NCBI RefSeq assembly: GCF_000025965.1
Contig: NC_006513.1
Span: 930,001 to 994,000 of the forward strand
DNA length: 64,000 nucleotides
Source of the DNA: Aromatoleum aromaticum EbN1
GTDB taxonomy: Bacteria > Pseudomonadota > Gammaproteobacteria > Burkholderiales > Rhodocyclaceae
Reading direction: 5' to 3'
Shown: positions 39,792 to 59,077 of the stretch, piece by piece
Numbering within the stretch: the first letter of the stretch is position 1
Layout: each line of letters begins with the position of its first letter
Translations under genes and position numbers: made by a program
Notes under the pieces: generated by a model
Told to the model about the DNA's origin: nothing
Databases searched by the model: none
Seen by the model: only the letters and a program-made list of their open reading frames with translations

Positions 39792-39812
39792 CTGTTGCGA
39801 ACCAACCAACAG
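39792..39812. promoter_or_regulatory. Candidate activator-binding inverted repeat
   Basis: CTGTTG and CAACAG form perfect six-base arms around nine bases. The site is about 160 bases upstream of the sigma-54 element, the usual distance for an enhancer bound by a sigma-54 activator such as the one encoded at 42588-43907. TTGCGAA occurs twice nearby. Binding is inference. Confidence 0.4.
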
Positions 39813-39913
39813 AATTGCGAAAAGCTGTTCGGCAGGGACCACCACGGCACATCACCGCAAGCAACGCCCACGGCGCGGAATTTTCATGATCACGCAACAT
39901 AATCGTTCGCTTT

Positions 39914-39926
39914 CAATGGCTTGAGA
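39914..39926. promoter_or_regulatory. IHF-like site
   Basis: CAATGGCTTGAGA matches the reverse of the IHF consensus (YAA-N4-TTGATW) at all but one fixed position. It lies between the candidate enhancer and the sigma-54 promoter, where DNA bending by IHF is commonly needed. Confidence 0.5.
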
Positions 39927-39951
39927 TTATATCCGAGCCTCTCCAGACAGC

Positions 39952-39966
39952 TGGCACGGTCCCTGC
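39952..39966 (+). promoter_or_regulatory. Sigma-54 (-24/-12) promoter of the peptide operon
   Basis: TGGCACG-N4-CTGC has the full -24 element and one mismatch in the -12 element (consensus TTGC), with the required ten bases between the GG and GC pairs. Transcription would begin near 39977, about 60 bases before the first peptide ATG at 40039. A sigma-54 activator is encoded in the same cluster. Confidence 0.85.
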
Positions 39967-40038
39967 GATAGGTCTGCTGAGCGCGCGAAAGTGCTCGATG
40001 CAAATCCAACCCTTAACAGAGCTCTCAGGAGAACGACC

Positions 40039-40317
40039 ATGAAATCCAACCTGATCATCAAGGACCTGTCCCTCGACAAAGCCCTCGACCGCAAAGCCAT
40101 GTCGTCGGTTCGCGGCGGGGTCGGCAATCAGGCCAACGCGACGCAGCAGGGGAATTTCCAGGAAATGTTTGCTGGGGTCGCAGTCGCCAACGGCGCGGAC
40201 TTCGGCGGCAGCGGCCCGGTGAATTTCCAGGTCACGTCCACGCCGACCCAGGACGCGTGGAACAACGCCGACAACAAGAACAAGATGGGCTATTCGCACT
40301 ACTACCCCTACGCGTAA
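40039..40317 (+). CDS. Double-glycine leader protein 1
   Basis: A 92-residue protein, first of five tandem paralogs. Leader residues 1-27 end LDRKAMSSVRGG; with cleavage after Gly27, Leu16 is at -12, Met21 at -7 and Val24 at -4, the canonical register for C39 peptidases. The 65-residue cargo is rich in Asn, Gln, Ala and Gly, has no cysteine, carries GSGPVNFQV in the middle, and ends in an aromatic tail YSHYYPYA. CAGGAG precedes the ATG. The likely exporter is the peptidase-containing ABC protein at 43904-46969. Whether the product is a toxin, signal or surface fibre is not known. Confidence 0.88.
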   Translation: MKSNLIIKDLSLDKALDRKAMSSVRGGVGNQANATQQGNFQEMFAGVAVANGADFGGSGPVNFQVTSTPTQDAWNNADNKNKMGYSHYYPYA

Positions 40318-40369
40318 TACCAGCGAACCCAGCGAATCGATCCATCACCGACCCTTCAGGAGAACCATC

Positions 40370-40642
40370 ATGAATTCGACTCTGACCATCAAGGACCTGT
40401 CCCTCGACAAGGCCCTCGATCGCAAGTCCATGTCCGCCGTCCGCGGCGGCTTTTTCGATCAGGCCAACGCCACCCAGCAGGCGAACGGCCAGACGATGAC
40501 CGCGCCGGTCGAAGTCGCCAACTTCGGCAACTTCAGTGGCAGCGGCCCGGTGAACATGCAAGTCACGTCCGAGCCGACGCAGCACGCATCGAACGACGCC
40601 TACAGCAAGAACAAGATCGCCCAACCGTACTACTACTGGTAA
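40370..40642 (+). CDS. Double-glycine leader protein 2
   Basis: A 90-residue paralog. Leader residues 1-27 read up to LDRKSMSAVRGG with the same -12/-7/-4 hydrophobic register. The 63-residue cargo starts FFDQANATQQ, shares GSGPVNMQV and a PTQHASND segment with paralogs 1 and 3, contains no cysteine and ends QPYYYW. The nucleotide sequence of the first 30 codons is nearly identical to that of paralog 3, pointing to recent duplication. CAGGAG precedes the ATG. It is followed by a long intergenic hairpin. Confidence 0.88.
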   Translation: MNSTLTIKDLSLDKALDRKSMSAVRGGFFDQANATQQANGQTMTAPVEVANFGNFSGSGPVNMQVTSEPTQHASNDAYSKNKIAQPYYYW

Positions 40643-40653
40643 TGGCGACGAGC

Positions 40654-40682: not shown

Positions 40683-40734
40683 CTTCCGCCGCATCAATGC
40701 CTGCTTGCCCAACCGACGTTTCAGGAGAACTACC

Positions 40735-41016
40735 ATGCATTCGACTCTCACCATCAAGGATCTTTCCCTCGACAAGGCCCTCGATCGCAAGTCCATGTCC
40801 GCCGTCCGCGGCGGCTTTTTCGATCAGGCCAACGCGACGCAACAGCAGAACTTCCAGTCGATGTTCGCGCCGGTGGCCGTCGCCAACGGTGCAAACTTTG
40901 CCGGCAGCGGTCCGGTGATCATCCAGGTCGACTCGATGCCGACGCAAGTGGCCTCGAACGACAGCGACAGCAAGAACCGCAACCTTTTCAACGACCTCTT
41001 CCGCGGCTTCGCCTGA
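40735..41016 (+). CDS. Double-glycine leader protein 3
   Basis: A 93-residue paralog. Leader 1-27 is the same as in paralog 2 apart from the second residue. The 66-residue cargo begins FFDQANATQQQNFQSMF and has GSGPVIIQV and PTQVASND, then a different end (NLFNDLFRGFA) in place of the aromatic tail. No cysteine. CAGGAG precedes the ATG at 40735; upstream in-frame ATG codons lack a ribosome site. A second hairpin follows. Confidence 0.88.
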   Translation: MHSTLTIKDLSLDKALDRKSMSAVRGGFFDQANATQQQNFQSMFAPVAVANGANFAGSGPVIIQVDSMPTQVASNDSDSKNRNLFNDLFRGFA

Positions 41017-41026
41017 CGCCGCGGTC

Positions 41027-41085: not shown

Positions 41086-41376
41086 ATGGCTGCCATCACC
41101 ATCAAGGACCTGCGGGCCGACTTCACCCTGGACCGCAAGACAATGTCCTCCGTCAAGGGCCGGGGAGGCGCGCCGTGGGTCTATGGATGGATAAGCCCTT
41201 ATATCGGGAATGCGTCGACCCGCGTCGGCGCCGTCACCAACTTCTACCAGACCAACAACATCTTCGTCGCGGATCAGATCAACAATCAGATCCAGGTAAT
41301 CGACATCGACAATTCCGCTGCCAATGCCGCCATCAACGTCGCCGCGACACAGACCGCCATCAACTTCAAGCGGTAG
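41086..41376 (+). CDS. Double-glycine leader protein 4 (variant cleavage site)
   Basis: A 96-residue paralog with leader TIKDLRADFTLDRKTMSSV. In the register of the others, Leu15, Met20 and Val23 place cleavage after Gly25-Arg26, with the Gly-Gly pair at +1/+2, so the usual Gly at -1 is replaced by Arg. The cargo is different: PWVYGWISPYIG, then a long Asn/Gln/Ile-rich stretch (FYQTNNIFVADQINNQ and AANAAINVAATQTAINF), beta-prone and lacking cysteine. CCGGAGGATAT precedes the ATG. Export by the same ABC protein is plausible but cleavage needs testing. Confidence 0.82.
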   Translation: MAAITIKDLRADFTLDRKTMSSVKGRGGAPWVYGWISPYIGNASTRVGAVTNFYQTNNIFVADQINNQIQVIDIDNSAANAAINVAATQTAINFKR

Positions 41377-41523: not shown

Positions 41524-41712
41524 ATGGCCACGATAGTCATCAAGGACTTGCCGGAAAACACGGCGCTCGACCGCGAGGCAATGCGGGCGATCAGCGGGGG
41601 CGCCCGACTGGGCGGACGTCCGACCGGCGGGCGCGCGGCGCCACGCACGGTTTTTCGCCCCGCAGTCGGACAGGCGCCGCGCCGCGCCGCGCCGACGCTG
41701 CTGTTCCCGTAG
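41524..41712 (+). CDS. Double-glycine leader protein 5 (short, cationic cargo)
   Basis: A 62-residue protein with leader ending LDREAMRAISGG: Leu15 at -12, Met20 at -7, Ile23 at -4, Gly-Gly at 25-26. The 36-residue cargo contains seven arginines, no acidic residue and many Pro/Gly/Ala, ending APTLLFP. It is unlike the Asn/Gln-rich cargo of paralogs 1-4 and resembles a proline/arginine-rich antimicrobial peptide in composition only. It is directly upstream of the phosphatase gene. Start ATG at 41524 with GAGGA upstream. Confidence 0.85.
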   Translation: MATIVIKDLPENTALDREAMRAISGGARLGGRPTGGRAAPRTVFRPAVGQAPRRAAPTLLFP

Positions 41713-41790: not shown

Positions 41791-42555
41791 ATGCCCCCTG
41801 CCGACCGGATCCGCTGGACCTCAGCGGCCCGCTGCCATGTGGGTCTGGTCCGCGATGTCAACGAGGACGCCTTCCTCGACCGCCCCGAGCGCGGCCTGTG
41901 GGTGGTCGCCGACGGCATGGGCGGGCACGATGCGGGCGAACTGGCGAGCCGCATGATCGTGTCGGCGATCGACGGTCTCGCGCCGTGTGCGGACCTGGCA
42001 ACTTTCATCATGGCGGCGCGACAGCGCCTGCAGGTCGTCAATCGCCAGCTTCGCGCGGAAGCGATGATGCGCGAAGTGCCGATCATCGGCAGCACTGTTG
42101 TCGTCATGCTCGGTTGCGGACCATTCTGTGCATACCTGTGGGCCGGCGACAGCCGCATCTATCTCTATCGCGCCGGGCGCCTGATGCTGCTGAGCCGCGA
42201 CCACAGCCACGCCGAAGAGCTGCGTGCGCAAGGCCTTGCCGATAGCGAAACGCTCGCATCCGCGCAGAACCTCGTCACGCGCGCAGTCGGCGCCCTCGAC
42301 ACGCTCGAACTCGACGAAGGCTCGATGCCGGTCGTCGACGGCGACATCTTCCTGCTGTGCAGCGACGGCCTGACGAATTACGCGAGCGAGCGGGACATCG
42401 CCAACGCGCTCGCTGCGGGCGACTGCCCGCAGGCGGCGGACACGCTGGTCGAGCTCGCGCTGAAAGGCGGCGGGCGCGACAACATCACCGCGGTGGTCGT
42501 GCGCGCCGAAGATTCCTGCAGCGCCGACATGACGGTGCTCAACCCCGCACTGTGA
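41791..42555 (+). CDS. PP2C-family Ser/Thr protein phosphatase
   Basis: Metal-dependent phosphatase of 254 residues. Metal ligands and motifs: RDVNEDAFLD (Asp26), VADGMGGHDAGE (Asp41), GDSRIYLYR, LLCSDGLTNY (Asp192) and GGGRDNITAVVV (Asp230). There is no membrane segment, so it acts in the cytoplasm. It resembles PppA/Stp1, which oppose PpkA-like kinases. Its location behind the peptide genes, opposite the exporter operon, suggests it removes phosphate from the FHA protein or kinase in this cluster. It ends 32 bases before the convergent activator gene. Confidence 0.93.
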   Translation: MPPADRIRWTSAARCHVGLVRDVNEDAFLDRPERGLWVVADGMGGHDAGELASRMIVSAIDGLAPCADLATFIMAARQRLQVVNRQLRAEAMMREVPIIGSTVVVMLGCGPFCAYLWAGDSRIYLYRAGRLMLLSRDHSHAEELRAQGLADSETLASAQNLVTRAVGALDTLELDEGSMPVVDGDIFLLCSDGLTNYASERDIANALAAGDCPQAADTLVELALKGGGRDNITAVVVRAEDSCSADMTVLNPAL

Positions 42556-42587: not shown

Positions 42588-43907
42588 TCAGCGGCCGTCG
42601 TCGCCGCGGGACGGCGGGCGGTGGCGAAAGTCCTTCGAGCGGATGCCGTGTTTCTTCAGCAGCGTCTGCAGGTGCGAGCGGTTCATGTCGCAGCGCCGCG
42701 CCAGCTCCGCGACGGTGCCGCCGACCTGCTGCAGGCCCCGCTCGAGGAACAGCCTCTCCGCCTCGTCGCTGGCGGCGCGTTTTGCGTCGCTGAGCGATAT
42801 CGAGGCTGCCGTCGCGGCCGACGCGTCGCTCGCAGCCGGCAGCGCGGCCGCGGCATTTGCCGGTGCCGACTGCGTCGCATCGGGGCGGATATCGGCAGGC
42901 AGATGCTGCAGGTCGGCGGTCTCCCCGGCCAGGCAGGAGATGCGGTAGATGATGTTGCGCAGCTCCCGTATGTTGCCGGGATAGGGATAGCGCAACAGGA
43001 ACTCCCGCAGCCGCGGCGTCATGCGCACCGGGCGGCGCTTCAGCGCTGCGGCAGCCTCGTCGCCGAAGAACGCGAACAGCAGCGGAATCTCGTCGCGGCG
43101 TTCGCGCAGCGGCGGCAGCGTCACGTGGATGACGCCGAGGCGGTAGAACAGGTCCTCGCGGAACCGGCCTTCTTCGCTCAGGCGGCGCAGGTTGCGGTTC
43201 GTCGCCGCGACGATGCGGGTGTCGACGGCGATCGGCTCGTCGGAGCCGACGCGCTGGATCTCGTGCGATTCGAGCACCCGCAGCAGCTTCACCTGCCCGG
43301 ACAGCGGCAGTTCGCCGATCTCGTCGAGGAAGATCGTGCCGGTGTGCGCGCTTTCGAACTTGCCTTTGCGATCGCTCACCGCGCCGGTGAACGCGCCCTT
43401 GCGGTGGCCGAAAAGCTCGGACTCCAGCAGGTTGTCGGGGATCGCGCCGCAGTTGACCGAGATGTAGGGCTTGTCGGAGCGCGAGCCGTTGGCGTGGATC
43501 ACTTTCGCCATCAGCTCCTTGCCGGTGCCGCTTTCGCCGTCGATGAGGACCGGCAGGTCGGTCGGCGCCGCCTTCTCGGCGATTTCGAGCGCCTCCAGGA
43601 GCTGCGGGTTGTCGCCGAACGCGCCTTCGAAGACGAAGCTGCGCTCGAGCAGCGCCCGCCGCCGCGCGCCCGGCGTGCGCTCGACGCGCACGCTTTCGGC
43701 CGCGGCCGCCTCGACGAAGCGCTCCTTGTGCGACAGCTGCATCACCTCGTCGCGCACCGCGTTGGCCTGCCGCAACAGCTTCTCGATCTCGGGCCGCGCG
43801 AGCGTCGGCGCCCAGCGCAGCGTCGAGCGCAGGATCTCGATCTTCTCGAGCAGCCCGGCGTACGAAATCACCGGGCTGCCGCGCAGCCCCGGAGTCAGGA
43901 TCTTCAT
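42588..43907 (-). CDS. Sigma-54-dependent transcriptional activator (no receiver domain)
   Basis: A 439-residue enhancer-binding protein. An N-terminal region of about 90 residues, helical and without a receiver or PAS signature, is followed by the AAA+ domain: Walker A GESGTGKE (124-131), GAFTGA (171-176, contacts sigma-54) and Walker B GTIFLDEIGEL (from 190). A Fis-type helix-turn-helix lies at about 395-422 (TVAELARRCDMNRSHLQTLLKKHGI). The ATG at 43907 overlaps the ABC exporter stop (ATGA), so it is the last gene of that operon. Two sigma-54 promoters in the cluster are its expected targets. Confidence 0.95.
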   Translation of the reverse strand: MKILTPGLRGSPVISYAGLLEKIEILRSTLRWAPTLARPEIEKLLRQANAVRDEVMQLSHKERFVEAAAAESVRVERTPGARRRALLERSFVFEGAFGDNPQLLEALEIAEKAAPTDLPVLIDGESGTGKELMAKVIHANGSRSDKPYISVNCGAIPDNLLESELFGHRKGAFTGAVSDRKGKFESAHTGTIFLDEIGELPLSGQVKLLRVLESHEIQRVGSDEPIAVDTRIVAATNRNLRRLSEEGRFREDLFYRLGVIHVTLPPLRERRDEIPLLFAFFGDEAAAALKRRPVRMTPRLREFLLRYPYPGNIRELRNIIYRISCLAGETADLQHLPADIRPDATQSAPANAAAALPAASDASAATAASISLSDAKRAASDEAERLFLERGLQQVGGTVAELARRCDMNRSHLQTLLKKHGIRSKDFRHRPPSRGDDGR

Positions 43908-46900
43908 GCCGCCGCCAGCTGCTTCTGCACCAGTTGGTAATACATGCCGCGCCGATCGACCAGCTCGTCGTGGCGCCCCTGCTCGACGATCGCGCCTTCG
44001 TACAGCACGAGGATCTTGTCGGCGCGCATGATCGTCGACAGCCGGTGAGCGATGACGACCGCGGTGCGCCCGGCGAGGATGTCGTGCATGTTGCTGATGA
44101 TGTTGCTCTCCGACTGCGTGTCGAGCGCGGAAGTCGCCTCGTCGAACACCAGGAGGCGCGGGTCGTGGTACAGCGCGCGGGCGATGCACAGGCGCTGGAT
44201 CTGACCGCCGGACAGGCCCACGCCGCGCTCGCCGACGATCTGCTCATATCCCAGCGGCATCTTGCGGATGAACGCGTGGGCGTCGGCCATGCGCGCGACC
44301 TCCTCGATGCGCCGCCGGTCCGGCGCCTCGTCACCGCTGGCGATGTTCTCGGCGATGGTGCCGGAGAACAAGAGGTTGCTCTGCATCACGTAGCCGACCT
44401 GCGCGCGGTAGTACTCCTTGTCGATCGTCGCCATGTCGTAGCCGTCGACGACGATGCGCCCGTCGGTCGGCGGGTAGAAGCCGACGAGCAGCTTCGCCAG
44501 CGTCGTCTTGCCCGAACCGCTGCGGCCGACGATCGCGACGAGCTCGCCGGGCTTGATCTCGAAGCTGATGTTCTCGAGCACGTATGGCGTCTCGTCGCCG
44601 CCATAGCGGAAATACACGCCTTCGAAGGCGATGTGACCCTGCAGGTCCGGCAGCACGACGCGCGAGGCAACCTCTTCCGGGCGCTGCTCCGGCTCCATGT
44701 CGAGCACGTCGCCGAGGCGCTCCATCGCGACCCCGGCGTCATTGACCTGGCTCCACAGCGCGACCAGCCCCATCAGCGGCGCGAGCACGCTGCCCATCAA
44801 GGCGTTGAACGCGATGAGCTGACCGATCGTGAGCTGATGCGCGAGCACCTGCGACGCTCCGACCCACAGGATCGCGATCGTCGTCGCGGCGTTGAGCACC
44901 TGGCTGGCGACGCCGACCAGCACGTTGAAGCGCTGCGCGCGGTATTGCACCTCCAGCGCCTTCGCGTATTTCTTCTCCCATTTCAGCCGCACCGGGCGCT
45001 CGATGCCCATGCCCTTGACCGTCTCGACGCCGCCGAGCGCTTCCATCAGGAAGGCTTTGGCGTCGGTCGAGGTGGTGAACACTTCGCGCGCATAGTTCTT
45101 GATCTTCGGCGTCACGAGCACCGTCAGCGCCATGATCGGGATGACGAACGCGAGCAGCAGGAGCGTCATCTTCACGTTGTAGAGGAACAGGATCGTGAAG
45201 TAGATGAACACCATCAGCAGGTTGAGCACCGTCGTGACCGTCGATTCGGTCAAAAACGCGCGGATCGTCTGGTTTTCCTGGAAGCGCGCGAAGATGTCGC
45301 CGGTCTTGCGCTTGGCGAAGAACGAGAACGGCAGCGACAGCGTGTGCTTGAAAAACTGCGACATCATCGCGAAGTCCATGTTGCGCACCATGAAATTCGC
45401 GAGAAACGCCCGGATGCCCGACATCAGCAGCGTGAAGAGGTTGGTGATGACGAGTCCGGCGATCAGGAGGTGCAGCAGGCTGACGTTCTCGTGCACGATC
45501 ACGCCGTCGAGGATGTTCTGGATGATCAGCGGCGGCACGATGCCCAGCACCTGGATCACGAAAGTCGCCATGACGAGGTGCGCGAGGATCTTCTTGTACG
45601 GCCGCAGGTACGAGACGAAACGCAGCCACGGCGAGCGCGACACCGTCAGCTGCGCGAGATTCTGCCCGGGTGTGAACAGCAGGCAGGTGCCGCTCCAGCC
45701 GCGCTCGAACTCTTCGATCGCGATCTTCCTGAAGCCGACAGCCGGATCGGCGACCCACACCTGCCGCTTCGAGACGCCATACACGACGACGTAGTGGTAG
45801 CCCTCCCAATGCACGATGAACGGCAGTTCGAAGCCGAGCAGCGCGTCGAACGTGCATTGCACGCCGCGCGTGGTGAAGCCGAGCGATTCGCCGGCGCGCG
45901 CGAGGCTGTCGAGCGTCGCGCCCTGTGTCGTCACGTTCGCGAGTTCGCGCAGTTTGCCGAGCGTCATCGGGATGTCGTAGTGGCGGCAGATCATCGCCAG
46001 GCACGCCGCGCCGCAGTCCATTTCCTCGGCCTGCTCGACGAGCGGGAAGCGTCGGATCAGCCGCTCGCCGAGCTCCGGCTTCGACTGCAGGTCGAGCATG
46101 ACGCGCAGGTTGCGCCGTTCGGCGAGCTTTTTCTGCCGCTGCAGCTCGCGTTCGACGAAGCGGATGCGCTCCTCGAGCACCTCGCGCAGCTTCGGATTGC
46201 GCTCGAGGATCTGGTGGACGGATTTTTCGGGGACCACCAGCAGCGTCGTATCGACGACCGCGACCACCGACGCGACCTGTTCCTGGCGCATCAGGCACGC
46301 CTTCTCGCCGAAGATCTCGCCGTGGCCGAGCGTCGCCAGCGGGTACTCGCTGCCCTGCTCGGTGCGCACGAGGCGTACTTCGCCCTGGCGGACCACGTAC
46401 AGGCGGCGGTCGTCGCGCGCGTCCTGCTTGAGGATCTCCCTGCCGGCCGCAACGCGCTTGACGCCGACGCTGCGCACCAGCTCTTCGAGCTCGGCGCGGT
46501 CGACCTTGCCGCGCAGATCGAACAGCCGCGCGACGACGCCGCCGGCCGAGCCGATCGCGACGTAGCTGGTGACGAACGCCTGCGCCGCCGGATTCTTCGC
46601 CAGGACCGGCTCGAACGCCTGGCGCGGGATCAGCAGCAGCTCGGTCTTCGCCGACGCGCGCGCCGAGAATTCGTGCCGGTACTCGCGCAGCATCGCCATC
46701 TCGGCGACGGTCTCGCGCGCCTTGCGCACGCCGAGGCTGATTTCCTTGCCGTGCTCGTCGGCGAAGATCCGCACCGAACCGGAGCGGATCACGAACACGC
46801 CGTCGGCCGGCTCGCCGGCGCTGCAGACGGTTTCGCCGAACGCGAGGAAGCGCGGCTGGGCCTGCCCGGCCAGCTGCTCGAGTTCGTCGCGCGTGAAGGG

Positions 46901-46969
46901 CGACAGCAGTTCCACCGACGACAGGAAATCGGCGAGGGAATCGAGTTTCGGTGGGGCGTCCGTGGACAT
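43904..46969 (-). CDS. Peptidase-containing ABC exporter with two cyclic-nucleotide-binding domains
   Basis: A 1021-residue type I exporter fused to a leader peptidase. Two CAP-ED (cNMP-binding-like) domains occupy about 18-130 and 155-265. The C39 domain spans 308-435 with catalytic Cys319 (EEMDCGAACLAMICRHY), His392 (EGYHYVVV) and Asp408 (VADPAVG). Six membrane helices lie at 455-735. The ATPase has Walker A GRSGSGKT (815), LSGGQ (919) and Walker B LLVFDEATSALD (939). It should cut the leader of double-glycine proteins and push the cargo through a HlyD/TolC conduit. The start at 46969 has GAGGTGATC upstream. Whether the CAP-ED domains bind a nucleotide cannot be read from the sequence. Confidence 0.95.
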   Translation of the reverse strand: MSTDAPPKLDSLADFLSSVELLSPFTRDELEQLAGQAQPRFLAFGETVCSAGEPADGVFVIRSGSVRIFADEHGKEISLGVRKARETVAEMAMLREYRHEFSARASAKTELLLIPRQAFEPVLAKNPAAQAFVTSYVAIGSAGGVVARLFDLRGKVDRAELEELVRSVGVKRVAAGREILKQDARDDRRLYVVRQGEVRLVRTEQGSEYPLATLGHGEIFGEKACLMRQEQVASVVAVVDTTLLVVPEKSVHQILERNPKLREVLEERIRFVERELQRQKKLAERRNLRVMLDLQSKPELGERLIRRFPLVEQAEEMDCGAACLAMICRHYDIPMTLGKLRELANVTTQGATLDSLARAGESLGFTTRGVQCTFDALLGFELPFIVHWEGYHYVVVYGVSKRQVWVADPAVGFRKIAIEEFERGWSGTCLLFTPGQNLAQLTVSRSPWLRFVSYLRPYKKILAHLVMATFVIQVLGIVPPLIIQNILDGVIVHENVSLLHLLIAGLVITNLFTLLMSGIRAFLANFMVRNMDFAMMSQFFKHTLSLPFSFFAKRKTGDIFARFQENQTIRAFLTESTVTTVLNLLMVFIYFTILFLYNVKMTLLLLAFVIPIMALTVLVTPKIKNYAREVFTTSTDAKAFLMEALGGVETVKGMGIERPVRLKWEKKYAKALEVQYRAQRFNVLVGVASQVLNAATTIAILWVGASQVLAHQLTIGQLIAFNALMGSVLAPLMGLVALWSQVNDAGVAMERLGDVLDMEPEQRPEEVASRVVLPDLQGHIAFEGVYFRYGGDETPYVLENISFEIKPGELVAIVGRSGSGKTTLAKLLVGFYPPTDGRIVVDGYDMATIDKEYYRAQVGYVMQSNLLFSGTIAENIASGDEAPDRRRIEEVARMADAHAFIRKMPLGYEQIVGERGVGLSGGQIQRLCIARALYHDPRLLVFDEATSALDTQSESNIISNMHDILAGRTAVVIAHRLSTIMRADKILVLYEGAIVEQGRHDELVDRRGMYYQLVQKQLAAA

Positions 46970-46985: not shown

Positions 46986-47738
46986 CTAACGCATTTCGAT
47001 GACATGATCCTGCGCCCGGGCGGCGAGCCAGCCTTCGCGCAGCAGGCGCCGCACCTCGGCCGCGGTCTCTTCGTCGAGCCGCGCCGGGTTCTTCGCATTC
47101 ACGAGGAAGATCTCGTAGAACGCGCCGTCGGGCGCGGCGAACGGTCCGAGCAGGTCGCCGGGCGCGGCGTTGAACACCTTGGCCTCGATTTCGGTCTTGA
47201 GCGAGCCGCGCATCACCTTGCCGATGAAACCGCCATCGTCGCGCGTGTCCGCGATCGAGTGCTCGCGCGCGAGCTCGGTGAAGCTGTCGGGGTCCTCGGC
47301 GAGCAGCGACATCATCTCTTTCGCCTGGCCCTCGGTTTCGAGCACGATGTGGCTGACCTCGATGCTGTCGAACTTCGGCGAGTTGAGCTGGAAGTATTCT
47401 TCGACCGCCTGGTCGCTGCAGACGCGCTGCATCATTTTTTCCTGGTACAGGCTGTCTGTGATGAACGCCTCGAACTCGTCGAGGCTCACGCCGCGCGCGT
47501 CGAGGTAATGGTTCATGTCGGCCGCCCGGTGCAACCCCAGCACGCGGCGGAACTGGTCGGCGCGCTCCTGGATCTCGTCGGCCGACACCGCGACGCCCTG
47601 CTTCTTCGCCGCATGGACGGTGAGCCGGTCGCGGACGATCTCGTCGATGAGGCTGTCGAAGCGCCCGGTAAGCTTCAGGATCCGGACGAATTCCCCGCTG
47701 CCGATGGATTCGTCGTCAATTCGCACTATCGCGGTCAT
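46986..47738 (-). CDS. Cytoplasmic parvulin-type prolyl isomerase
   Basis: A 250-residue SurA/PrsA-like protein with no signal peptide. The N-terminal 110 residues are helical (chaperone-like, FDSLIDEIVRDRLTVHAAKKQGV), then the parvulin domain at about 125-215 (VSHIVLETEGQAKEMMSLLAEDP, DDGGFIGKVMRGSLKTEIEAKVFNA). It lies 16 bases upstream of the ABC exporter and 34 downstream of HlyD. Such isomerases accompany exporters of long leader peptides (for example nitrile-hydratase-like leader systems) and may hold the precursor unfolded for export. Active-site residues of parvulins are poorly preserved, so a pure chaperone role is possible. Confidence 0.88.
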   Translation of the reverse strand: MTAIVRIDDESIGSGEFVRILKLTGRFDSLIDEIVRDRLTVHAAKKQGVAVSADEIQERADQFRRVLGLHRAADMNHYLDARGVSLDEFEAFITDSLYQEKMMQRVCSDQAVEEYFQLNSPKFDSIEVSHIVLETEGQAKEMMSLLAEDPDSFTELAREHSIADTRDDGGFIGKVMRGSLKTEIEAKVFNAAPGDLLGPFAAPDGAFYEIFLVNAKNPARLDEETAAEVRRLLREGWLAARAQDHVIEMR

Positions 47739-51708: not shown

Positions 51709-53142
51709 TCAGCGCCGCACATTCGCGACCTCGACGGTCGGCCAGCCGCCGCCGAGCGCTTTGTAGAGCGTCACCGTGTCAGCGAGAATCTGCTGGTGGT
51801 TGGCGAGCAGCGCGAGCTGCGCCGCGAGCAGCGAGCGCTCGGTCTCGAACACTTCGAGCTGGGAGACGAGCCCTTCCCGGAGCTGCGCCTCGACCTGCGC
51901 CGCGACGATCTGCAGCTGGTCGATCTGCTGCTGCAGCTCGGTGCGCTGCTGGCGGTGAGCTTCGAGGTTCGTCAGCGCGTTCTCCACTTCCTCGAACGCG
52001 GCGATCACGGTGCGCTGGTACTCGTGCTCGAAGACTTTCGTCTGGGCTTCGGTCGTCTTGAGGCGCGCCTTGATGCTCGGATCGAACGCGGGGATGTTGA
52101 TGCTCGGCAGAAAACCGAACGTGAAGGACTTCAGCAGGTCGCCGAGCGCGAAGCTCGACGTGCCGCCACGCCCGGTCAGGCTGATCGACGGCAGCTGCGC
52201 GAGCCGCGCCTGCCCGACGAGGTCGTAGGCTTCGAGCAAGCGGAACTCGGCGGCGACGATGTCGGGGCGGCGGTTCAGCAGCTCGGAAGGCAGCCCGGCC
52301 GGCACTGCCGGCAGCTCGACGCGCTCCTGCAGCTTTCCCGGCGGCACGGTGAATTCGCCGGCCGGCACGCCCAGCAGCGTCGCCAGCGCGTTGCCGGCGA
52401 GGCCGCGCGCGCGCTGCAGTTCAAGCAGGTCGCGGGTCAGCGCGTTGTTCTCGGCGCGCTGGCGCAGCACCTGCGTACGGGGCACGAGGCCTTGCCCGAG
52501 CATCGCCTCGAACGTCGCGAGGATCTGCCGGCTGCGGTCGAGCGCGCGCTGCTGGCGGTCGATCTGCTCGTCGAGCTGGAGGATCTGGAAATACGTCGTC
52601 GCGACGTCGGACACGAGCGTCAGATATCCCGCCCGCCAGTCCGCTTCGGTGGCGCGGAATTCGGCAGTCTGCGCCTGGACGCCTTTTTCGACCTTGCCCC
52701 AGATGTCGAGGTCCCAGTTGACCTGGGTGCCCAGGTTGAACTGCTTGCGGAAGTTCTGCCCGGTGCTTTTCTCGAAACTCGCGCCGGCGCCGATATCAAG
52801 CGTCGGCAACGCGCCGGCGCGCGCTTCGCCGATCTGCGCCTCGGCGACCTGGATGCGCGCGGCGAGGATCTTGACGTCGAAGTTGTCGGCGATCGCACGG
52901 TTGACGAGTTCGTCGAGCGTCGGATCACCGAACTCCCGCCACCAGTCGGGCGCGATCGTGTCGGCCGCCGACACCGCGGGACGCGACCACGACGCCTTGC
53001 CGGGCGTATCGGGGCGCTGGTATTCGGCCACTTTCACGCCCGCGCAGCTCGCGAGCAACAACGCCAGCGAGCCGGCCAGCAGCGCCCGCAGCAGCGGCAG
53101 CGTCCGCCCGTACGGCCTTGACATCGACATTGGGGAAGCCAT
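51709..53142 (-). CDS. NodT-family outer membrane efflux lipoprotein
   Basis: A 477-residue TolC-superfamily protein. The signal ends LALLLASC, a lipobox. Two OEP repeats follow with the typical DPTLDELVNRAIADNFDVKILAARIQVAEAQIGEARAGALP, VNWDLDIWGKV, LLNRRPDIVAAEFRLLEA and FEHEYQRTVIAAFEEVENALTNLEAHRQQ. It should be the outer-membrane exit for the C39 exporter in this operon. ATG at 53142 follows GGAG; the open frame continues upstream into the HD-GYP gene without a start signal. Confidence 0.94.
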   Translation of the reverse strand: MASPMSMSRPYGRTLPLLRALLAGSLALLLASCAGVKVAEYQRPDTPGKASWSRPAVSAADTIAPDWWREFGDPTLDELVNRAIADNFDVKILAARIQVAEAQIGEARAGALPTLDIGAGASFEKSTGQNFRKQFNLGTQVNWDLDIWGKVEKGVQAQTAEFRATEADWRAGYLTLVSDVATTYFQILQLDEQIDRQQRALDRSRQILATFEAMLGQGLVPRTQVLRQRAENNALTRDLLELQRARGLAGNALATLLGVPAGEFTVPPGKLQERVELPAVPAGLPSELLNRRPDIVAAEFRLLEAYDLVGQARLAQLPSISLTGRGGTSSFALGDLLKSFTFGFLPSINIPAFDPSIKARLKTTEAQTKVFEHEYQRTVIAAFEEVENALTNLEAHRQQRTELQQQIDQLQIVAAQVEAQLREGLVSQLEVFETERSLLAAQLALLANHQQILADTVTLYKALGGGWPTVEVANVRR

Positions 53143-53183: not shown

Positions 53184-55109
53184 TCAGGCCGCGGCCCACG
53201 CCTTCGATTCGACGAACACCCTGAACAACCGCGCATCGAGCCGTCCGGCGCGGCATTCGGCATCCAGCAGGTCCAGCGCATGTTCGAGCGGCATCGCCTT
53301 CTTGTATGGGCGATCCCCGGCGGTCAGCGCGTCGTAAATGTCCGAGATCGTCAGGATGCGTGTCTGGATGCTGATCTGCGCCCCGCGCAGCCCCATCGGG
53401 TAGCCGGAGCCGTCGAGCTTTTCGTGATGGGCGTGGGCGATCGCCGGCACGCCGCCGAGGTCGCGCGTCCACGGGATCAGGATCAGGAACGAATACGAAT
53501 CGGCGACGTGCGACTCGATCTGCTTGCGCTCTTCAGCCGTCAGGCAGCCTTTCGACACGCTGAGCGCCGCGAACTCGCTGTCGCTCAGCAACGGTACGGA
53601 AACGCCGTCGGCTTCGTCGACCGTGCAGCCGAGAATGCGATCGAGCTCGTGCGAGCGCTCGGTGTACGAAATCGCCGGCTCGTTGGCGCGGCGGATCACG
53701 GCGAGGAACTCGTCGAGGCGCGCGAATTCGTCGCGCAGTCCCTGCTCGATGCGGCGCTTTTCTTCACGGAACGCGGTGAGGCCGAGTTCGCGCTCGCAGT
53801 GCAGCTCGGCCAGTTTCCGGTACGCCTGCCGCTCGAGGCACGCGCACGCGTATTTGAAGCGCTGTTCGAGCAGGCGCATCTCGGCGTGGTGGAGCTTCTT
53901 CTCCTTGCGCAGCACATGCTCGCGCACGCCCACTTTGCCGAAATCGTGCAAGAGCGCAGCGTAACGGATCTCGCGCAGCTGGTCCTCGGTGAAGGCGATG
54001 CCGCGCAGTTCGGGTTCGTCGGTGCGGTCGACCGCCCGGGCGAGGTTCTCGGCGTAGTGCGCGACGCGGAACGAGTGCCCGGCGGTCACCGGGTCGCGTT
54101 CTTCGATCGCCTGGACCGAGGCGCGGACGAAGCCTTCGAGCAGGCGCTCGATATCCGAGTACAGCTGGAAGTTCTTCAGCGCGACCGCCATCTCCGCACA
54201 CACGCCGGTGAGCATTTCGAGATCCTGGCCCTTGAACGCGCAGGGATCCGAAGACGTGTCGAGCTGGATCAGTCCGAGCACCTCGCCCTCGAGCAGCAGC
54301 GGGACGCACATGACGCTCCGGATGTCCTGTGCAACGATCGATTCCTGGCAGCCGAAGTGGCGATCCGCCAGCGTGTCGACGGAGAGAATCGACAGTTTCC
54401 TGTTTAGCACCTCGTCGACGATAGTGCGAGAAATCCTCAGCTGCTCCGGGTCCTCGACGGTGCCGTCGCGCCAGCGCGCCGCGACCGGCACCGGCACCTC
54501 GCCTTCGTTCTTCCGCAGCAGGATGAAGGCGCGCTCGGCGCGCGGAAAGAGTTCGAAGATCAGGTTCATGATCTTCTCGGTCAGCGTGGCCGCGTTCGTG
54601 ACGGCGCCGAGCGCGATGCCGACCTGCGCCATCGCGTGGAGCTTGCGGATCACCCCTTGCGCATCACCGTCCTCGGTCTGCGGCGGTCCTTCGAGCGGCC
54701 TGGCATACTGGGTCGCGTCGACCGTCTGCCGGATCACGGCCGGCGCGCTGTCGCGAGGCGGCACGAGCAGCGAATGGAACGCGAGCGGCGTCGACGAGAT
54801 CGACAGCTCGTCGCCGTCGTGCAGCGGATGCCAGACGCCGGGGCGCAAGCGTTTGCCGAGCACGAACGTGCCGTTGAACGAGTGCAGGTCCTCGATGAAA
54901 TACTCGCCCCCGTTCAGGCACACGCGCGCATGCCGGCGGCTGATGGTGTGTTCGGGGATGCAGAGAAAACGTCCCTCGGCCAGCGAATCCTGCGGATCCC
55001 GGCCGATCACCACTTCGTCATGGAGGGGGAACACCTCGCCCGTTGCGGTGACTTCGAGGTACGCGGTCACCGGGCCTGGTGACTCGGGAACGGCCACTGT
55101 GTTTCGCAT
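53184..55109 (-). CDS. FHA-GAF-HD-GYP protein, predicted c-di-GMP phosphodiesterase
   Basis: A 641-residue cytoplasmic signalling protein. FHA domain about 20-110 (VVIGRDPQD, ISRRHARVC, HSFNGTFVLG), GAF domain about 160-310 (VPLLLEGEVLGLIQLD), HD-GYP about 330-625 with ALLHDFGKVG (HD at 388) and HHEKLDGSGYP (561). Between these two motifs is a helical insert of about 120 residues not found in ordinary HD-GYP domains. It would degrade cyclic di-GMP in response to phospho-Thr binding and a GAF ligand. First gene of the exporter operon, behind a sigma-54 promoter. ATG 55109 has GGAGGGTGGGA upstream. Confidence 0.92.
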   Translation of the reverse strand: MRNTVAVPESPGPVTAYLEVTATGEVFPLHDEVVIGRDPQDSLAEGRFLCIPEHTISRRHARVCLNGGEYFIEDLHSFNGTFVLGKRLRPGVWHPLHDGDELSISSTPLAFHSLLVPPRDSAPAVIRQTVDATQYARPLEGPPQTEDGDAQGVIRKLHAMAQVGIALGAVTNAATLTEKIMNLIFELFPRAERAFILLRKNEGEVPVPVAARWRDGTVEDPEQLRISRTIVDEVLNRKLSILSVDTLADRHFGCQESIVAQDIRSVMCVPLLLEGEVLGLIQLDTSSDPCAFKGQDLEMLTGVCAEMAVALKNFQLYSDIERLLEGFVRASVQAIEERDPVTAGHSFRVAHYAENLARAVDRTDEPELRGIAFTEDQLREIRYAALLHDFGKVGVREHVLRKEKKLHHAEMRLLEQRFKYACACLERQAYRKLAELHCERELGLTAFREEKRRIEQGLRDEFARLDEFLAVIRRANEPAISYTERSHELDRILGCTVDEADGVSVPLLSDSEFAALSVSKGCLTAEERKQIESHVADSYSFLILIPWTRDLGGVPAIAHAHHEKLDGSGYPMGLRGAQISIQTRILTISDIYDALTAGDRPYKKAMPLEHALDLLDAECRAGRLDARLFRVFVESKAWAAA

Positions 55110-55349
55110 TCCCACCCTCCCGCGTGCGCCGGACGATCGCTTAACTTTGACTCGTGATGAAAATACCGGTTCCGGGCAAACCGGACTGCGAAAACCCTTG
55201 AAGCCGCTCGCCCGCTCGTTCGTCAAAACGCCCATCCTCCGGTCACGGGCAGATCGCTGAGCGTCAAGATTTTCAAGCAGCTTCTCCCGAAGTCCCTGCT
55301 GCAGTGCCGAGTGCGCTCGAACACTTTTCGCAGGCTCGGCAGAGCTGTT

Positions 55350-55364
55350 GCACGGAGCGTGCCA
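55350..55364 (-). promoter_or_regulatory. Sigma-54 (-24/-12) promoter of the exporter operon
   Basis: On the minus strand TGGCACG-N4-GTGC has a perfect -24 element, one mismatch in the -12 element (consensus TTGC), and ten bases between the GG and GC pairs. Transcription would start near 55338, giving a leader of about 230 bases before the HD-GYP gene. Confidence 0.8.
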
Positions 55365-55523: not shown

Positions 55524-55577
55524 CCTGGCTGGAAAGGCCGCCTTCTGCGACCGTGGCGCTTCCCGATCGCGCTCGCG

Positions 55578-55596
55578 GCGCCCGCCAAGCGGGCGC
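55578..55596. repeat. GC-rich hairpin
   Basis: GCGCCCGC pairs with GCGGGCGC around CAA. On the plus strand a T-run follows only after 12 bases, so a terminator is unlikely. Confidence 0.6.
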
Positions 55597-55792
55597 GGAT
55601 GAACTATATTTTTTAAAGACACTTCGATTGATGAACCCGTGCAGGGTGACGTCGCGAGCGTTCTCCCTGTTCGACACTACGCTTCGATGCGCGCCCATCC
55701 ACCAACCCGCAGCATCGCCCGGCTGATCCTCGTAATCCCGACCGGGCGCGAACGTGAGCCCGGAAGACTCCTGGCCGACCGAGGGGAAGCAG

Positions 55793-57856
55793 ATGGCTAG
55801 TCTTTCGCACGCGATTCACGCTTTCCGCAGCGGCGGTCTGTCTCCCAACGAGTTTTTCGCGCAGGTCGACCGCGTCCTGGCGACGGACGAGCCCGACCAG
55901 GCGAAGCTCCTCGAGGTCCTGAGCGAAGAGCACACGAAGCTGCCGCTGCCGCCCGACGTGTACGCCGAAGTGCATCGGCGCATCGAGCACCTCACGGGCA
56001 CCGGGCACAAGGACGCGAACGACGACCAGACGCGCATGCAGCTCGCTCCGGGAGCCCATGTTTCCGGGATTTCCGGCATTCACGCCCCCGCCGCAGGTAC
56101 CGCGCCGTCCGAACCGGATCGCATCAAAGGCGTCGGAGACACGGTCAATGGCCGCTTCCTGCTCGAGGAATGCCTGGGCTTCGGCGGCATGGGCACCGTG
56201 TACAAGGCGCTCGACCTGCGCAAGCTCGAAGCTTCCGACCGGAACCCGTATATCGCGATCAAGGTCCTCAACGTCCAGTTCCGCGGCCATCCGAAATCCC
56301 TGATCGCGCTGCAGCGCGAGGCACGCAAAGCCCAGGCGCTCGCCCACCCGAACATCGTCGCGGTGTACGACTTCGACCGCGACGGATCGATGGTGTACCT
56401 GACGATGGAGTACCTGTCCGGCAAGCCGCTGAGCCGGGTGCTGCGCGCGCAGGGTTTCCGCGGCATGCCGTACGCAGAAGCGCTGCCGATCATCACCGGC
56501 ATGGCCAACGCGCTGGCCTACGCGCACGAGCACGGCTTCGTCCACTGCGACTTCAAGCCGGCGAACGTTTTCCTCACCGACAAGGGTCCGGTCAAGGTCA
56601 TCGACTTCGGCATCGCGCGGGTCTTCCGCCGCTCCGAGGAGGAGGCCGAAGCGACGGTCTTCGACGCCGGCAGCCTCGGCGGCCTGACGCCAGCGTACGC
56701 AAGCCCGGAGATCCTCGAACACCGCGAACCGGACCCGCGCGACGACATCTATGCGCTCGCCTGCATCACCTACGAGCTGCTGACCGGCGCGCATCCGTTC
56801 GGGCAGTTGCCGGCAACCCAGGCGCGCAATGCGGGACTGCGTCCGCCGCGGCCGAAACATCTGCCGGCCAGAGCGTGGCGCACGTTGCGCACCGCGCTGT
56901 CGTTCGACCGCGAAACCCGCACCCCCAGCGTCGCGCAATTCCTCGCCGGGATGAAACCCCAGCAGCGCGTCGCACTGCCGGTCGCGGCGGGGATTGCAGC
57001 GGCGGTGGCTGCTGCGCTCGTCGCGATCGCGCTTCTCTACGATCGGACACCCGCCGAGGTCGCACAGGGCGAAGCTCCCTCCGCCACTGCCGGCGCACCG
57101 CAAGAGGCGCCTCCTCCGGCCGTAGCCCCCCCAGGCGAATTCTCGGCACCCGAACCCGCACCGCCCGCCGCGATCCCGCCGCTGTCCGTGGCATCGGTCA
57201 CGCCGGTGCTGGCGAAAGTGCCCTGCTCGGCGCTGGCGGCGTCGAGCAGCGGCAACACGCTGCAAGTGCAGGGCTACCTGCCCGCCACCTTCGGGCTCGC
57301 AAGCTTGCGCGACGCGCTGACCGCGATCCCCGGCGTGACGACGCTGAATACCGACGTGCAGCAGGTGAGCGCCGACAAATGCAGCGTGATCGAAACGTTC
57401 GCGCCTTACTGGGCGAAGAACCGGCAGGCCGGCGGCGAGGCTTCGATCCGCATGCAGGCGGGCGGCGCCGCGCTGACGGAAGGCGACTCGCTGATCATCG
57501 ACGTGACGACTCCCGCCTACGAGTCGTACGTCCATGTCGACTATTACGTCCTCGACGGCACTGTCGTCCATCTCGTGCCGAGCCGGCGGGCGCAAGCCAA
57601 CCGGGCGCCACCGCGTTACAGCGCGACGATCGGCACGGTGGCCGGATGGACGATTTCGAAGCCTTTCGGCACCGAGCTGATCGTGCTGCTGGTCACGCCG
57701 GTGCCGCTTTTCGACGGGCTACGCCCCGAATCGGAATCGCGATCGGATTATCTGCGCGCCGTCGACAAGAGCTTGCGCGACATCGCCGCGAAGCACGGGC
57801 AGGACAAGATCACGGCGGACTTCATCCAGATCACGACGCGCGCACGGGTACCCTGA
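55793..57856 (+). CDS. Transmembrane Ser/Thr protein kinase with periplasmic DUF4384-like domain
   Basis: A 687-residue kinase. Domains: an unassigned N-terminal 110 residues; the kinase domain 115-385 with Gly loop GFGGMGTVYKA (129), catalytic Lys157, catalytic loop HCDFKPAN (251-258) and DFG (271); a membrane helix at about 394-416; a Pro/Ala-rich linker; a BON-like stretch at 490-540; a DUF4384-like domain at 550-650. The catalytic loop has Cys in place of Arg before Asp253, a non-RD kinase. It resembles PpkA of type VI secretion in topology. It is divergent from the exporter operon with FHA proteins and convergent with the SUMF1-like gene. ATG 55793 follows GAGGGGAAG. Confidence 0.92.
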   Translation: MASLSHAIHAFRSGGLSPNEFFAQVDRVLATDEPDQAKLLEVLSEEHTKLPLPPDVYAEVHRRIEHLTGTGHKDANDDQTRMQLAPGAHVSGISGIHAPAAGTAPSEPDRIKGVGDTVNGRFLLEECLGFGGMGTVYKALDLRKLEASDRNPYIAIKVLNVQFRGHPKSLIALQREARKAQALAHPNIVAVYDFDRDGSMVYLTMEYLSGKPLSRVLRAQGFRGMPYAEALPIITGMANALAYAHEHGFVHCDFKPANVFLTDKGPVKVIDFGIARVFRRSEEEAEATVFDAGSLGGLTPAYASPEILEHREPDPRDDIYALACITYELLTGAHPFGQLPATQARNAGLRPPRPKHLPARAWRTLRTALSFDRETRTPSVAQFLAGMKPQQRVALPVAAGIAAAVAAALVAIALLYDRTPAEVAQGEAPSATAGAPQEAPPPAVAPPGEFSAPEPAPPAAIPPLSVASVTPVLAKVPCSALAASSSGNTLQVQGYLPATFGLASLRDALTAIPGVTTLNTDVQQVSADKCSVIETFAPYWAKNRQAGGEASIRMQAGGAALTEGDSLIIDVTTPAYESYVHVDYYVLDGTVVHLVPSRRAQANRAPPRYSATIGTVAGWTISKPFGTELIVLLVTPVPLFDGLRPESESRSDYLRAVDKSLRDIAAKHGQDKITADFIQITTRARVP

Positions 57857-57904
57857 TTCGTGAAGGCGGCGATGCGCCGGACCAGGCCGAAATGCCCCGG
57901 ATCG

Positions 57905-59077
57905 CTACTCGACGTCGCGCGCGACGCGGAACCCGTTCTGCGAGTGCCGCACGCTGGCACCGTACTTGAAGCGGGTCGACGACAGCATGTAGTCGGCTCC
58001 TTCGCGCCATGACCCGCCGCGTATCACGCGCACGCGGCAATCCGGTTCATCCCAGGAACGCCCGTCGGCCGGCGCCCCCTTGTAGGAGTTGTGCCAGCAG
58101 TCGCTGACCCATTCCCAGACGCTTCCGTTCATGTCGTACAGGCCGTACGGATTGGCGCGGAACGAGCCGACATTCGCCGGACCGCCTTCACGCCACGGAT
58201 CGCCGCAGCCCTTGCAGTTCGCGTTGCCGCCGACCATCTGGTTGCCCCACCAGTATCGCGTCGTCGTGCCGCCGCGGATCGCGTATTCCCACTCCGCCTC
58301 GGTCGGCAGCCGGTAGGTCTTGCCGGTGACCCCGCTCAACCATTTCGCATAGATGCGGGCATCCTCCCAGTGCAGGTCGCGCACCGGGGCGTTCTTCGCC
58401 GCGCCCTCTTCCATGGCCAATTGCGGACATGCACGGGCTGCGACGCAGGCGTCCCATTGCTCGTTCGTGACCTCGTACTTGCCGATCGCGAACGGCCGCG
58501 CGATCGAGACGCGATGCGCCGGTCTTTCCGTCGGATAGTCGGTGTTGCTTCCCATGACGAATTCGCCGCCCGGCAGTCCGACCATCGCCGGGCACGTCGG
58601 GCAATCCTTGATCTCGGCAAGCGTTGCCGCTGCGGCCGGAGGTTTTTCCAGCGCCGGTGCTGCAGGGGCAGGTGCCGTGCGGGGTGGTCGTGCCGGCGCG
58701 GCGGGGGCAGCCGGAGCGGGCCGCGCGCGCGGCGGTGCGGGAGGTGTCGCCCGCGGAGTCGCGGGCGTCTCGACTTTTGGCGCAGCCGCGCGCAGCCGCT
58801 CGATGCGGGCCCGGGCGAGCGGTGCGAAACGTCCGTTCGGGTACGCTTTCAGGTACGCCTCGTAGTCGCTCGCATATTCGCTGTCCTTGATCGACTCCCA
58901 GAACGTCAGCTCGTACTGCTCCGCGCTGTCCTTGGGGAGGATTCCGGCAAGCTGGACGGGCGGCGGCGGTGCGCTCCACGGTCCCGTACCGACGCCGACA
59001 CCGGCGCCCGTCGCGGCCGGGGCGAATCCGGAAGCGAACGCCACGAACATCCCGACGATGAGAAGTTCTCGCCACAT
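57905..59077 (-). CDS. Secreted SUMF1/FGE-fold protein without catalytic cysteines (TagR-like)
   Basis: A 390-residue periplasmic protein. A signal sequence is followed by a helical segment at 52-97 ([21 protein letters not shown]), an Ala/Pro-rich linker and the formylglycine-enzyme fold at about 165-388: [58 protein letters not shown] and VIRGGSW. The two cysteines used by true formylglycine-generating enzymes after RGGSW are absent, and no sulfatase gene is near. In type VI secretion the SUMF1-fold protein TagR stimulates the PpkA kinase; the neighbouring kinase gene makes the same role attractive. Start at 59077 is set by the signal peptide; the ribosome site is poor. Confidence 0.87.

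Follow-up and report, generated by a model that had tools for sequence, protein, structure and literature searches.

Do the genes around a C39 peptide exporter in Aromatoleum aromaticum EbN1 form one system with it, and if so, what do they switch? The question is raised by a block of genes in a 64,000-nucleotide window of contig NC_006513.1 (positions 930,001 to 994,000; coordinates below are those of the window). In this block, a C39 peptidase–ABC exporter, an HlyD-family adaptor, a NodT-type channel protein, and small proteins with double-glycine leaders (here called cargo) are encoded beside a transmembrane Ser/Thr kinase, a PP2C phosphatase, a membrane protein with two FHA domains (FHA2), an FHA-GAF-HD-type protein (HD protein), a parvulin (PpiC), a secreted FGE/SUMF1-fold protein, and a sigma-54 activator. 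The block is a conserved module, and on balance we favor the reading that it constitutes a self-contained system for regulated small-protein export, in which phosphorylation would most likely gate export.

Co-Occurrence of the Exporter and the Switch Genes

Among 17 genomes of the genus, the full-length exporter is present in 10 (that of the window included) at 87–100% identity, and FHA2 and the kinase are present in the identical 10 (thresholds: 1e-100 for the exporter, 1e-10 for FHA2, and 1e-60 for the kinase); the co-occurrence of exporter, double-FHA protein, and kinase on which a sequence-only reading of the block had hinged is thereby observed. The other seven genomes gave nothing past these thresholds save one partial ABC match (34%) in G003. 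Across 399 evenly sampled genomes of the order, three contain the exporter N-terminus, and these are also the three with FHA2, again including that of the window (both at 1e-40). The nine other carriers in the genus keep the set PP2C, activator, ABC, PpiC, HlyD, FHA2, NodT, HD protein, kinase, FGE, and DUF4399 pair, with one contig (G013) ending inside the kinase gene; in two genomes of another family (G290 and G193), the kinase–FGE–DUF4399 part runs in the opposite orientation, and an HD protein is lacking. The module genes stay together while their flanks change, and this clustering, with the matching presence and absence, upholds the earlier claim that they form one evolutionary unit.

A contig search with the exporter N-terminus yielded at least 224 confirmed relatives, of which 80 loci were examined (five overlap the genus and order genomes). 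These 80 belong to Aromatoleum, Thauera, Noviherbaspirillum, Herminiimonas, Herbaspirillum, Paucimonas, Cupriavidus, Paraburkholderia, Caballeronia, and Burkholderia, together with two less resolved metagenome-assembled genomes. Within 10 kb of the 80 exporters, the activator was found at all 80 (at least 50% identity), PpiC at 79, PP2C at 71, HlyD and FHA2 at 69 each, NodT at 68, DUF4399 at 64, FGE at 61, and the HD protein (at least 40% coverage) and the kinase at six each; the FGE and kinase counts are low because the flank was limited to 10 kb. HlyD was missing from 11 of the 80 loci: the contig breaks off at L117 and L138, the 4 kb upstream at L065 contain no HlyD, and eight loci have a different gene order (L064, L066, L070, L074, L090, L098, L103, and L131). 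In seven of these eight, HlyD and NodT lie further off or on another contig, and in G437 (the genome of L090) the stretch holds only a piece of NodT.

Eighteen exporter genomes were chosen for closer study: the eight of different order, G019 of a sister genus (exporter 82% identical, with only the activator and PpiC adjoining in the fetched stretch), and nine others. FHA2 and the kinase are matched in every one of the 18 (E ≤ 1e-10), the best match per genome being at most 1e-166 for the kinase and 4e-88 for FHA2; several matches are in two pieces, and the FHA2 match of G440 spans only about 16–516. The sequence-only reading had named exporter operons that regularly lack the switch as contrary evidence; no such pattern was observed in the close relatives. 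In G019 and seven of the eight reordered genomes, HlyD, FHA2, NodT, HD protein, DUF4399 pair, FGE, and kinase are clustered, with cargo-like matches, and in five also with PP2C. On the same contig, the cluster lies 2.8 kb (G433), 7.6 kb (G434), 9.9 kb (G440), 12.2 kb (G438), and 36.7 kb (G439) from the exporter. It is on another contig in G435 and G436, where both pieces are near contig ends and may be neighbors, and in G019; in G437, megabases separate the exporter from fragments of the kinase, NodT, and FHA2 genes. The reordered loci are thus mostly rearranged rather than split, real separation being argued only by G019, G437, and G439. The kinase and FHA2 pieces on contig C1 of G437 are themselves far apart (~0.67, 1.27, and 2.01 Mb), pointing to rearrangement or misassembly. 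The HD protein is present in eight of the nine rearranged genomes vs. six of the 80 loci, and is an optional part outside the wider core.

Organization of the Block

Open reading frame starts in the block were refined by eye (Table 1). Pfam recovered every domain named in the sequence-only reading: C39 (1e-40), ABC membrane (3e-45), and two cNMP-type stretches (6e-38) in the exporter; HlyD (8e-20); OEP in NodT (1e-47); Rotamase in the parvulin (1e-10); FHA in two stretches of FHA2 (8e-31); FHA, GAF, and HD in the HD protein (4e-14, 8e-12, and 2e-31); PP2C (1e-10); Pkinase (3e-41); FGE-sulfatase (2e-59); and Sigma54_activat (2e-69). Neither a receiver nor a GAF domain was detected by Pfam in the activator, and the C-terminal region of the kinase is DUF4384-like with a score under the Pfam cut-off. 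The genes had been described as lying in one block of 19 kb; the block is a conserved module, with a greater extent, since two secreted DUF4399 proteins travel with it and carry it to 60304, and the HD gene within it falls outside the core.

Table 1. Features of the module and its sigma-54-type elements in the window.
Feature	Position	Strand	Basis or remark
Sigma-54-type -24/-12 element	39952..39967	+	10/12 consensus positions; 87 nt 5' of first cargo ATG
Cargo 1: double-glycine leader (VRGG), N/Q-rich mature part of ~65 aa	40039..40317	+	
Cargo 2, paralog of cargo 1	40370..40642	+	
Cargo 3, paralog of cargo 1	40735..41016	+	
Cargo 4: APWVYGWI...N/Q type, leader end VKGRGG	41086..41376	+	Adjoins PP2C
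Cargo 5, short basic type	41524..41712	+	
PP2C Ser/Thr phosphatase; conserved C-terminal tail D-M-T-V-L-N-P	41791..42555	+	Pfam
Sigma-54 activator, AAA+	42588..43907	-	Pfam, NCBIfam
Exporter: two cNMP-type domains, C39 peptidase, ABC transporter	43904..46969	-	Pfam; start by eye
Parvulin (PpiC)	46986..47738	-	Pfam; signal peptide not seen by eye
HlyD-family periplasmic adaptor	47773..49146	-	Pfam, NCBIfam
FHA2: two FHA domains, disordered linker, transmembrane helix, helical region 372-820	49124..51619	-	Pfam, AlphaFold model
NodT-type outer-membrane channel protein	51709..53142	-	Pfam, NCBIfam
FHA-GAF-HD-type protein (HD protein), optional	53184..55109	-	Pfam; locus survey
Second sigma-54-type element, 5' of FHA-GAF-HD gene	55349..55364	-	11/12; not family-wide
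Transmembrane Ser/Thr kinase; acidic-x-Thr motif N-terminal to kinase domain	55793..57856	+	Pfam
Secreted FGE/SUMF1-fold protein	57905..59077	-	Pfam; nearest solved relative by sequence is PvdO
Secreted DUF4399 protein A, beyond the range first described	59374..59811	+	Pfam; locus survey
Secreted DUF4399 protein B	59867..60304	+	Pfam; locus survey

Three sets of neighboring genes were also considered. A radical-SAM gene (38194–39189, minus strand; SPASM match under cut-off) was rejected as a peptide-modifying partner; it probably is not part of the module, because it lies beside the cargo genes in only two of the nine other genus carriers (G011 and G008; the G013 contig has little sequence on this flank). 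The RND efflux genes left of the block were set aside, being seen in only four of these nine carriers (G011, G008, G006, and G007). A gene for a hemerythrin-domain protein (60487–61137, plus strand) adjoins the module only in the same four closest members of the genus.

A Type I Export Route

The transport parts are those of a peptidase-containing ABC transporter (PCAT) of type I secretion. A peptidase with an intact triad is fused to an ABC transporter: in 84 of 84 unique high-scoring segment pairs (HSPs), the C39 triad (C319, H392, and D408) is conserved, as are the Lys of Walker A and the Asp-Glu of Walker B in the ABC domain; the HlyD adaptor and NodT lie within 10 kb of the exporter in 69 and 68 of 80 loci, respectively, and the cargo has double-glycine leaders. 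In NCBIfam, the exporter scores under the equivalog cut-off of NHLM_micro_ABC1 (571.4 vs. 853.3 bits) and under the cut-offs of bacteriocin exporter models. An intact triad, HlyD, and double-glycine leaders are shared with the PCAT systems of microcin V and NHLP-type peptides; the module differs in its two N-terminal cNMP-type domains, its own sigma-54 activator, and the kinase/phosphatase/FHA set.

The five double-glycine proteins that had been recognized in the block are confirmed as five small open reading frames at 40039–41712 with a common leader of the type IKDL...LDR..M..V/I.GG. The leader pattern recovers four of the five, and misses cargo 4 because its cleavage site reads VKGRGG instead of VRGG. 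Applied to 116 sequence sources, some of which share a genome, it retrieved 261 precursors, 218 of them unique, from 101 sources, with a consensus that conserves D-L, L-D, M, and V/I.GG. The 218 unique mature parts have a median length of 68 aa, contain 13% Asn and 6% Gln, and have Cys in only 24; net charge in 149 non-redundant sequences has a median of -1 and a range of -3 to 9. Loci carry several cargo paralogs, with a maximum of eight found in one stretch, and orthologs of cargo 4 occur in at least 43 loci, 31 from other loci having been aligned with that of the window.

The window's five cargo proteins match no Pfam family at E ≤ 1, and their NCBIfam matches all fall under curated cut-offs. 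A comparison of 70 cargo proteins with Pfam, NCBIfam, and solved structures gave nothing convincing; the top NCBIfam model was TIGR04149 (10 of 70, best E 3e-4), and weak matches to bacteriocin models comprised Bacteriocin_IIc (two of 70, best E 0.03) and lactococcin G-beta (five of 70, best E 0.004). Extended glycine zippers like those of Cdz were rejected, since among the 149 sequences GxxxG is not enriched (31 vs. 46.1 in shuffles) and GxxxGxxxG is near expectation (5 vs. 4.2); curlin-like spacing was rejected likewise (5 vs. 3.9). The composition of the mature cargo weakly suggests the cell surface or a matrix as its most likely destination.

Sigma-54-Type Promoters Mark the Cargo Genes

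Upstream regions were scanned for 16-nt -24/-12 elements that contain the required GG and GC and agree with the consensus at 10 or more of 12 positions. Such sites are present in 117 of 222 unique 300-nt cargo upstreams, vs. a mean of 4.6 (maximum 9, 30 draws) in random stretches and three on the antisense strand; the random stretches come from the same loci and keep base composition, not relatedness, and related species inflate the counts. At 11 of 12 positions, the figures are 52 cargo upstreams vs. 1.1 random, and these elements lie 50–99 nt 5' of the cargo ATG, mostly at 70–89 nt.

Upstreams of machinery genes are not clearly enriched over the random-stretch rate of 2.4%: PP2C 0/75, activator 0/69, ABC 0/80, PpiC 0/79, HlyD 2/78, FHA2 1/74, NodT 1/77, FGE 0/68, and DUF4399 0/68 and 0/69, with small samples for the HD protein (2/15) and the kinase (1/13). 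Sigma-54 control of the machinery was therefore rejected, despite the one 11/12 site before the window's FHA-GAF-HD gene. The sequence-only reading had wired the activator to the exporter. The association holds, as the activator lies beside the exporter at every one of the 80 loci; the target has to be revised, because the sites precede cargo genes and not machinery genes, and the activator most likely controls cargo supply.

Phosphorylation Parts and a Recurrent Acidic-x-Thr Motif

Residue conservation was counted among the unique HSPs that cover each site. The Lys, HxD, and DFG residues of the kinase are kept in 31 of 31 covering HSPs (of 34), the metal aspartates of PP2C in 76/76 to 77/77, and the phosphopeptide-binding residues of FHA2 in 86 of 86 (of 89), bar one His in the first FHA domain. 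The kinase match of G006 (G006:C2:324004-325772) is in two pieces (query 1–453 and 561–700), and this gene may be damaged.

PP2C, kinase, and FHA2 share an acidic-x-Thr motif, in each case within a flexible segment whose sequence otherwise varies. All 59 unique complete PP2C tails (<40 aa) carry [DE].T.[LVIM]NP (shuffles for plain [DE].T, 12.4). The linker before the kinase domain carries acidic-x-Thr in 22 of 25 cases (shuffles 0.14), the three misses holding ETR or STR, and the FHA2 linker carries D.T(x)F in 49 of 53 (shuffles 2.8), the misses being three empty or cut extractions and one EKTTF. Among the seven variants inspected in HD proteins, six have VDAT.Y and one has MDAT.Y. The motif in phosphatase, kinase, and FHA2 is a candidate phosphoacceptor, and as such supports a phosphothreonine circuit.

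The AlphaFold model of FHA2 (predicted local distance difference test score, pLDDT, 80.6; 25 sequences) has two FHA domains, a membrane-type helix, and a helical region (372–820) that would be periplasmic. Its linker (241–313), predicted to be disordered, holds the conserved T247/T249 and D266-x-T268. The matches of FHA2 among solved proteins are FHA domains, many of them phosphothreonine-binding. In the FGE-fold protein, the cysteine pair that we take to be the catalytic motif of formylglycine-generating enzymes is absent, with no Cys among the three commonest residues at any position of the corresponding stretch (covered by 30 of 87 unique HSPs). Against solved structures, DUF4399 gave nothing below E 0.7.

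Comparison With Described Systems

PppA of the type VI threonine-phosphorylation pathway is a PP2C-type phosphatase, and TagR has the FGE fold. That pathway is described as built of PpkA, PppA, and Fha1, TagR acting ahead of them in the periplasm (PMC12133291; PMC6657622), and it fires on envelope injury (PMC12133291). The classes of membrane Ser/Thr kinase, PP2C, FHA, and periplasmic protein are common to both systems; the module differs in that its FHA component is a double-FHA membrane protein and its partner a C39 type I exporter. FHA2 has no match to the type VI Fha model TIGR03354 at E ≤ 0.001, and the FHA-GAF-HD protein scores 35.8 bits against a cut-off of 120.25; no type VI sheath, baseplate, or membrane gene was found among the 20 scanned proteins of the block and its near neighbors. 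Of the type VI-like pathway first proposed, the kinase, PP2C, FHA, and FGE-fold classes stand, with active-site residues kept, and membership of FHA2 in the type VI Fha family does not.

The nearest precedent found for kinase/FHA control of an ABC exporter is PknF–Rv1747 of Mycobacterium tuberculosis, in which PknF is reported to modulate positively Rv1747, a threonine-phosphorylated ABC exporter with two FHA domains (PMC3908365). The likeness lies in a Ser/Thr kinase and FHA domains acting with an ABC exporter; in Rv1747 the FHA domains are inside the transporter polypeptide, whereas the module has a separate FHA membrane protein beside a tripartite peptide exporter. Rv1747 is not known to have a C39 domain or to carry peptides. 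The claim that no described system has this full set agrees with searches of the open-licence PubMed Central literature, in which none of the papers listed describes the gene combination (absence in print is not proven by this), and has to be qualified by the PknF–Rv1747 precedent. Cdz of Caulobacter also exports small cargo (86 and 84 aa predicted) by a type I route, and the terms kinase and sigma54 are absent from the main text of that paper (PMC5380434). Unlike Cdz, the module has cargo without enriched glycine zippers, and no immunity gene was recognized in it, though no dedicated search was made. GarA/OdhI and Bdellovibrio DgcB, which are among the best FHA2 matches by sequence and fold, likewise combine an FHA domain with a phosphoacceptor in a flexible segment. 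GarA/OdhI act by self-binding, and all of these are soluble metabolic or cyclic-di-GMP regulators, not parts of secretion operons.

Deeper Relatives

In the class, 10 of 369 genomes match the exporter, that of the window included. Two of these (G644 and G611, 64–68% identity) keep activator, ABC, PpiC, HlyD, FHA2, and NodT, with FHA2 between HlyD and NodT at 35–42% identity and PP2C on another contig; the PP2C tail of G611 reads EMTMINP, and in G644 two BLAST matches to the cargo-5 leader adjoin PP2C. Seven further exporters, at 30–34% identity, all have HlyD by the ABC gene; an FHA match lies beside the ABC gene in five of the seven (two tested, both confirmed by Pfam), and PpiC and activator are in the same run in four, the contigs of G550 and G765 ending earlier. 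In two genomes, G581 and G693, genes for a kinase ~50% identical in the kinase domain, PP2C, and FGE-fold proteins are clustered on another contig than the exporter.

These clusters (L256, G581:C41, 6452–14011, and L257, G693:C14), with PP2C, a large kinase open reading frame, and FGE-fold genes, possibly represent a similar switch. A distant relative of the exporter operon is seen in L213 (G693:C13, 1417–20000, continued in L225 to 3479) and the matching G581 locus, in the order ShlB/POTRA, activator, PpiC, HlyD, cNMP-C39-ABC, FHA protein, three tandem OEP, GNAT, and ATP-grasp. This arrangement suggests a channel made of three proteins and, perhaps, a peptide pathway akin to that of graspetides.

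Proposed Mechanism and Alternatives

We propose that the exporter-linked sigma-54 activator turns on the cargo genes, and that the C39 domain, as in its family, would cut the precursors after the double glycine for passage through the ABC–HlyD–NodT channel, with the cytoplasmic parvulin as likely cargo chaperone. The kinase would sit in the inner membrane with its C-terminal region outside, and the neighboring secreted FGE-fold protein is its likely sensor. The kinase may phosphorylate its own acidic-x-Thr threonines as well as those of the phosphatase tail and the FHA2 linker; FHA2 would bind phosphothreonine and assemble or open the channel through its membrane anchor and helical solenoid, and PP2C would reset the switch.

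Several observations weigh against this scheme. The locus counts span related species and are not independent; 105 of the 222 cargo upstreams have no site at the threshold used; and the acidic-x-Thr patterns were framed after sight of the sequences, so that the motif may have another role. The predicted structure of cargo 4 is uninformative (pLDDT 47), so that the putative surface role is read from composition. In G644 and G611, whose assemblies are fragmented into ~270 and ~430 contigs, the best kinase matches reach 36 and 35%; the lack of a close ortholog weighs against strict dependence on the kinase, and the G644 phosphatase tail (GKTLINP) lacks the acidic residue. G593 and G765 have no FHA gene beside the exporter (the G765 contig being 8.2 kb), and a Skermanella plasmid exporter (28.7%) has only HlyD adjoining.

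Distant exporters with so few module genes, and the abundance of kinase-like and PP2C-like genes in these genomes, could suggest an ordinary peptide exporter beside an unrelated signaling island. Such coincidence is extremely improbable in view of the matching presence and absence in 17 and 399 genomes, the occurrence of HlyD and FHA2 within 10 kb in 69 of 80 loci, and the persistence of FHA2 and kinase matches in the nine genomes of broken order. It is quite unlikely, in our estimation, that the phosphorylation genes instead set transcription, FHA2 or the kinase feeding the sigma-54 activator while the exporter is constitutive. With neither a receiver nor a GAF domain by Pfam, the activator may depend on a partner for its signal, and both its constant place beside the exporter and the restriction of sites to cargo genes would fit; FHA2, however, is anchored in the membrane and continues past the membrane helix as a large helical region, and its gene lies between HlyD and NodT. 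Control of both transcription and export is possible.

The cargo could also be antibacterial, in the manner of microcins or Cdz, with the switch as a defense trigger like type VI tit-for-tat. C39 exporters with double-glycine peptides often carry bacteriocins, a few cargo proteins weakly match bacteriocin models, and the switch parts match the type VI pathway, which is fired by envelope injury (PMC12133291). We nevertheless rate this account as unlikely, as a conserved immunity-like gene was not recognized (though no dedicated search was made), GxxxG is not enriched as it is in Cdz, and loci hold several cargo paralogs.

Implications

Beyond regulated export as such, we tentatively suggest, as a possibility with the balance somewhat against it, that the module represents an undescribed family of phospho-gated type I machines. 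In such machines, sigma-54 would stock Asn/Gln-rich cargo, a kinase sensing the envelope would, with a membrane FHA scaffold as its reader, open the exporter, and cargo would be released or polymerized on the surface. The pairing of FHA and exporter would then be old, since FHA genes also adjoin exporters of ~30–34% identity in other families of the class, and the type VI kinase switch would be one use of a general gating of secretion.

In the usual view, type I secretion proceeds as long as there is cargo to export. The module brings to light a large family of small secreted proteins, so far unclassified, whose genes have sigma-54-type promoters, and, if the proposed gating is true, type I export would be switchable after translation, as type VI secretion is, in a system that would be testable in culturable soil bacteria such as Aromatoleum and Paraburkholderia.

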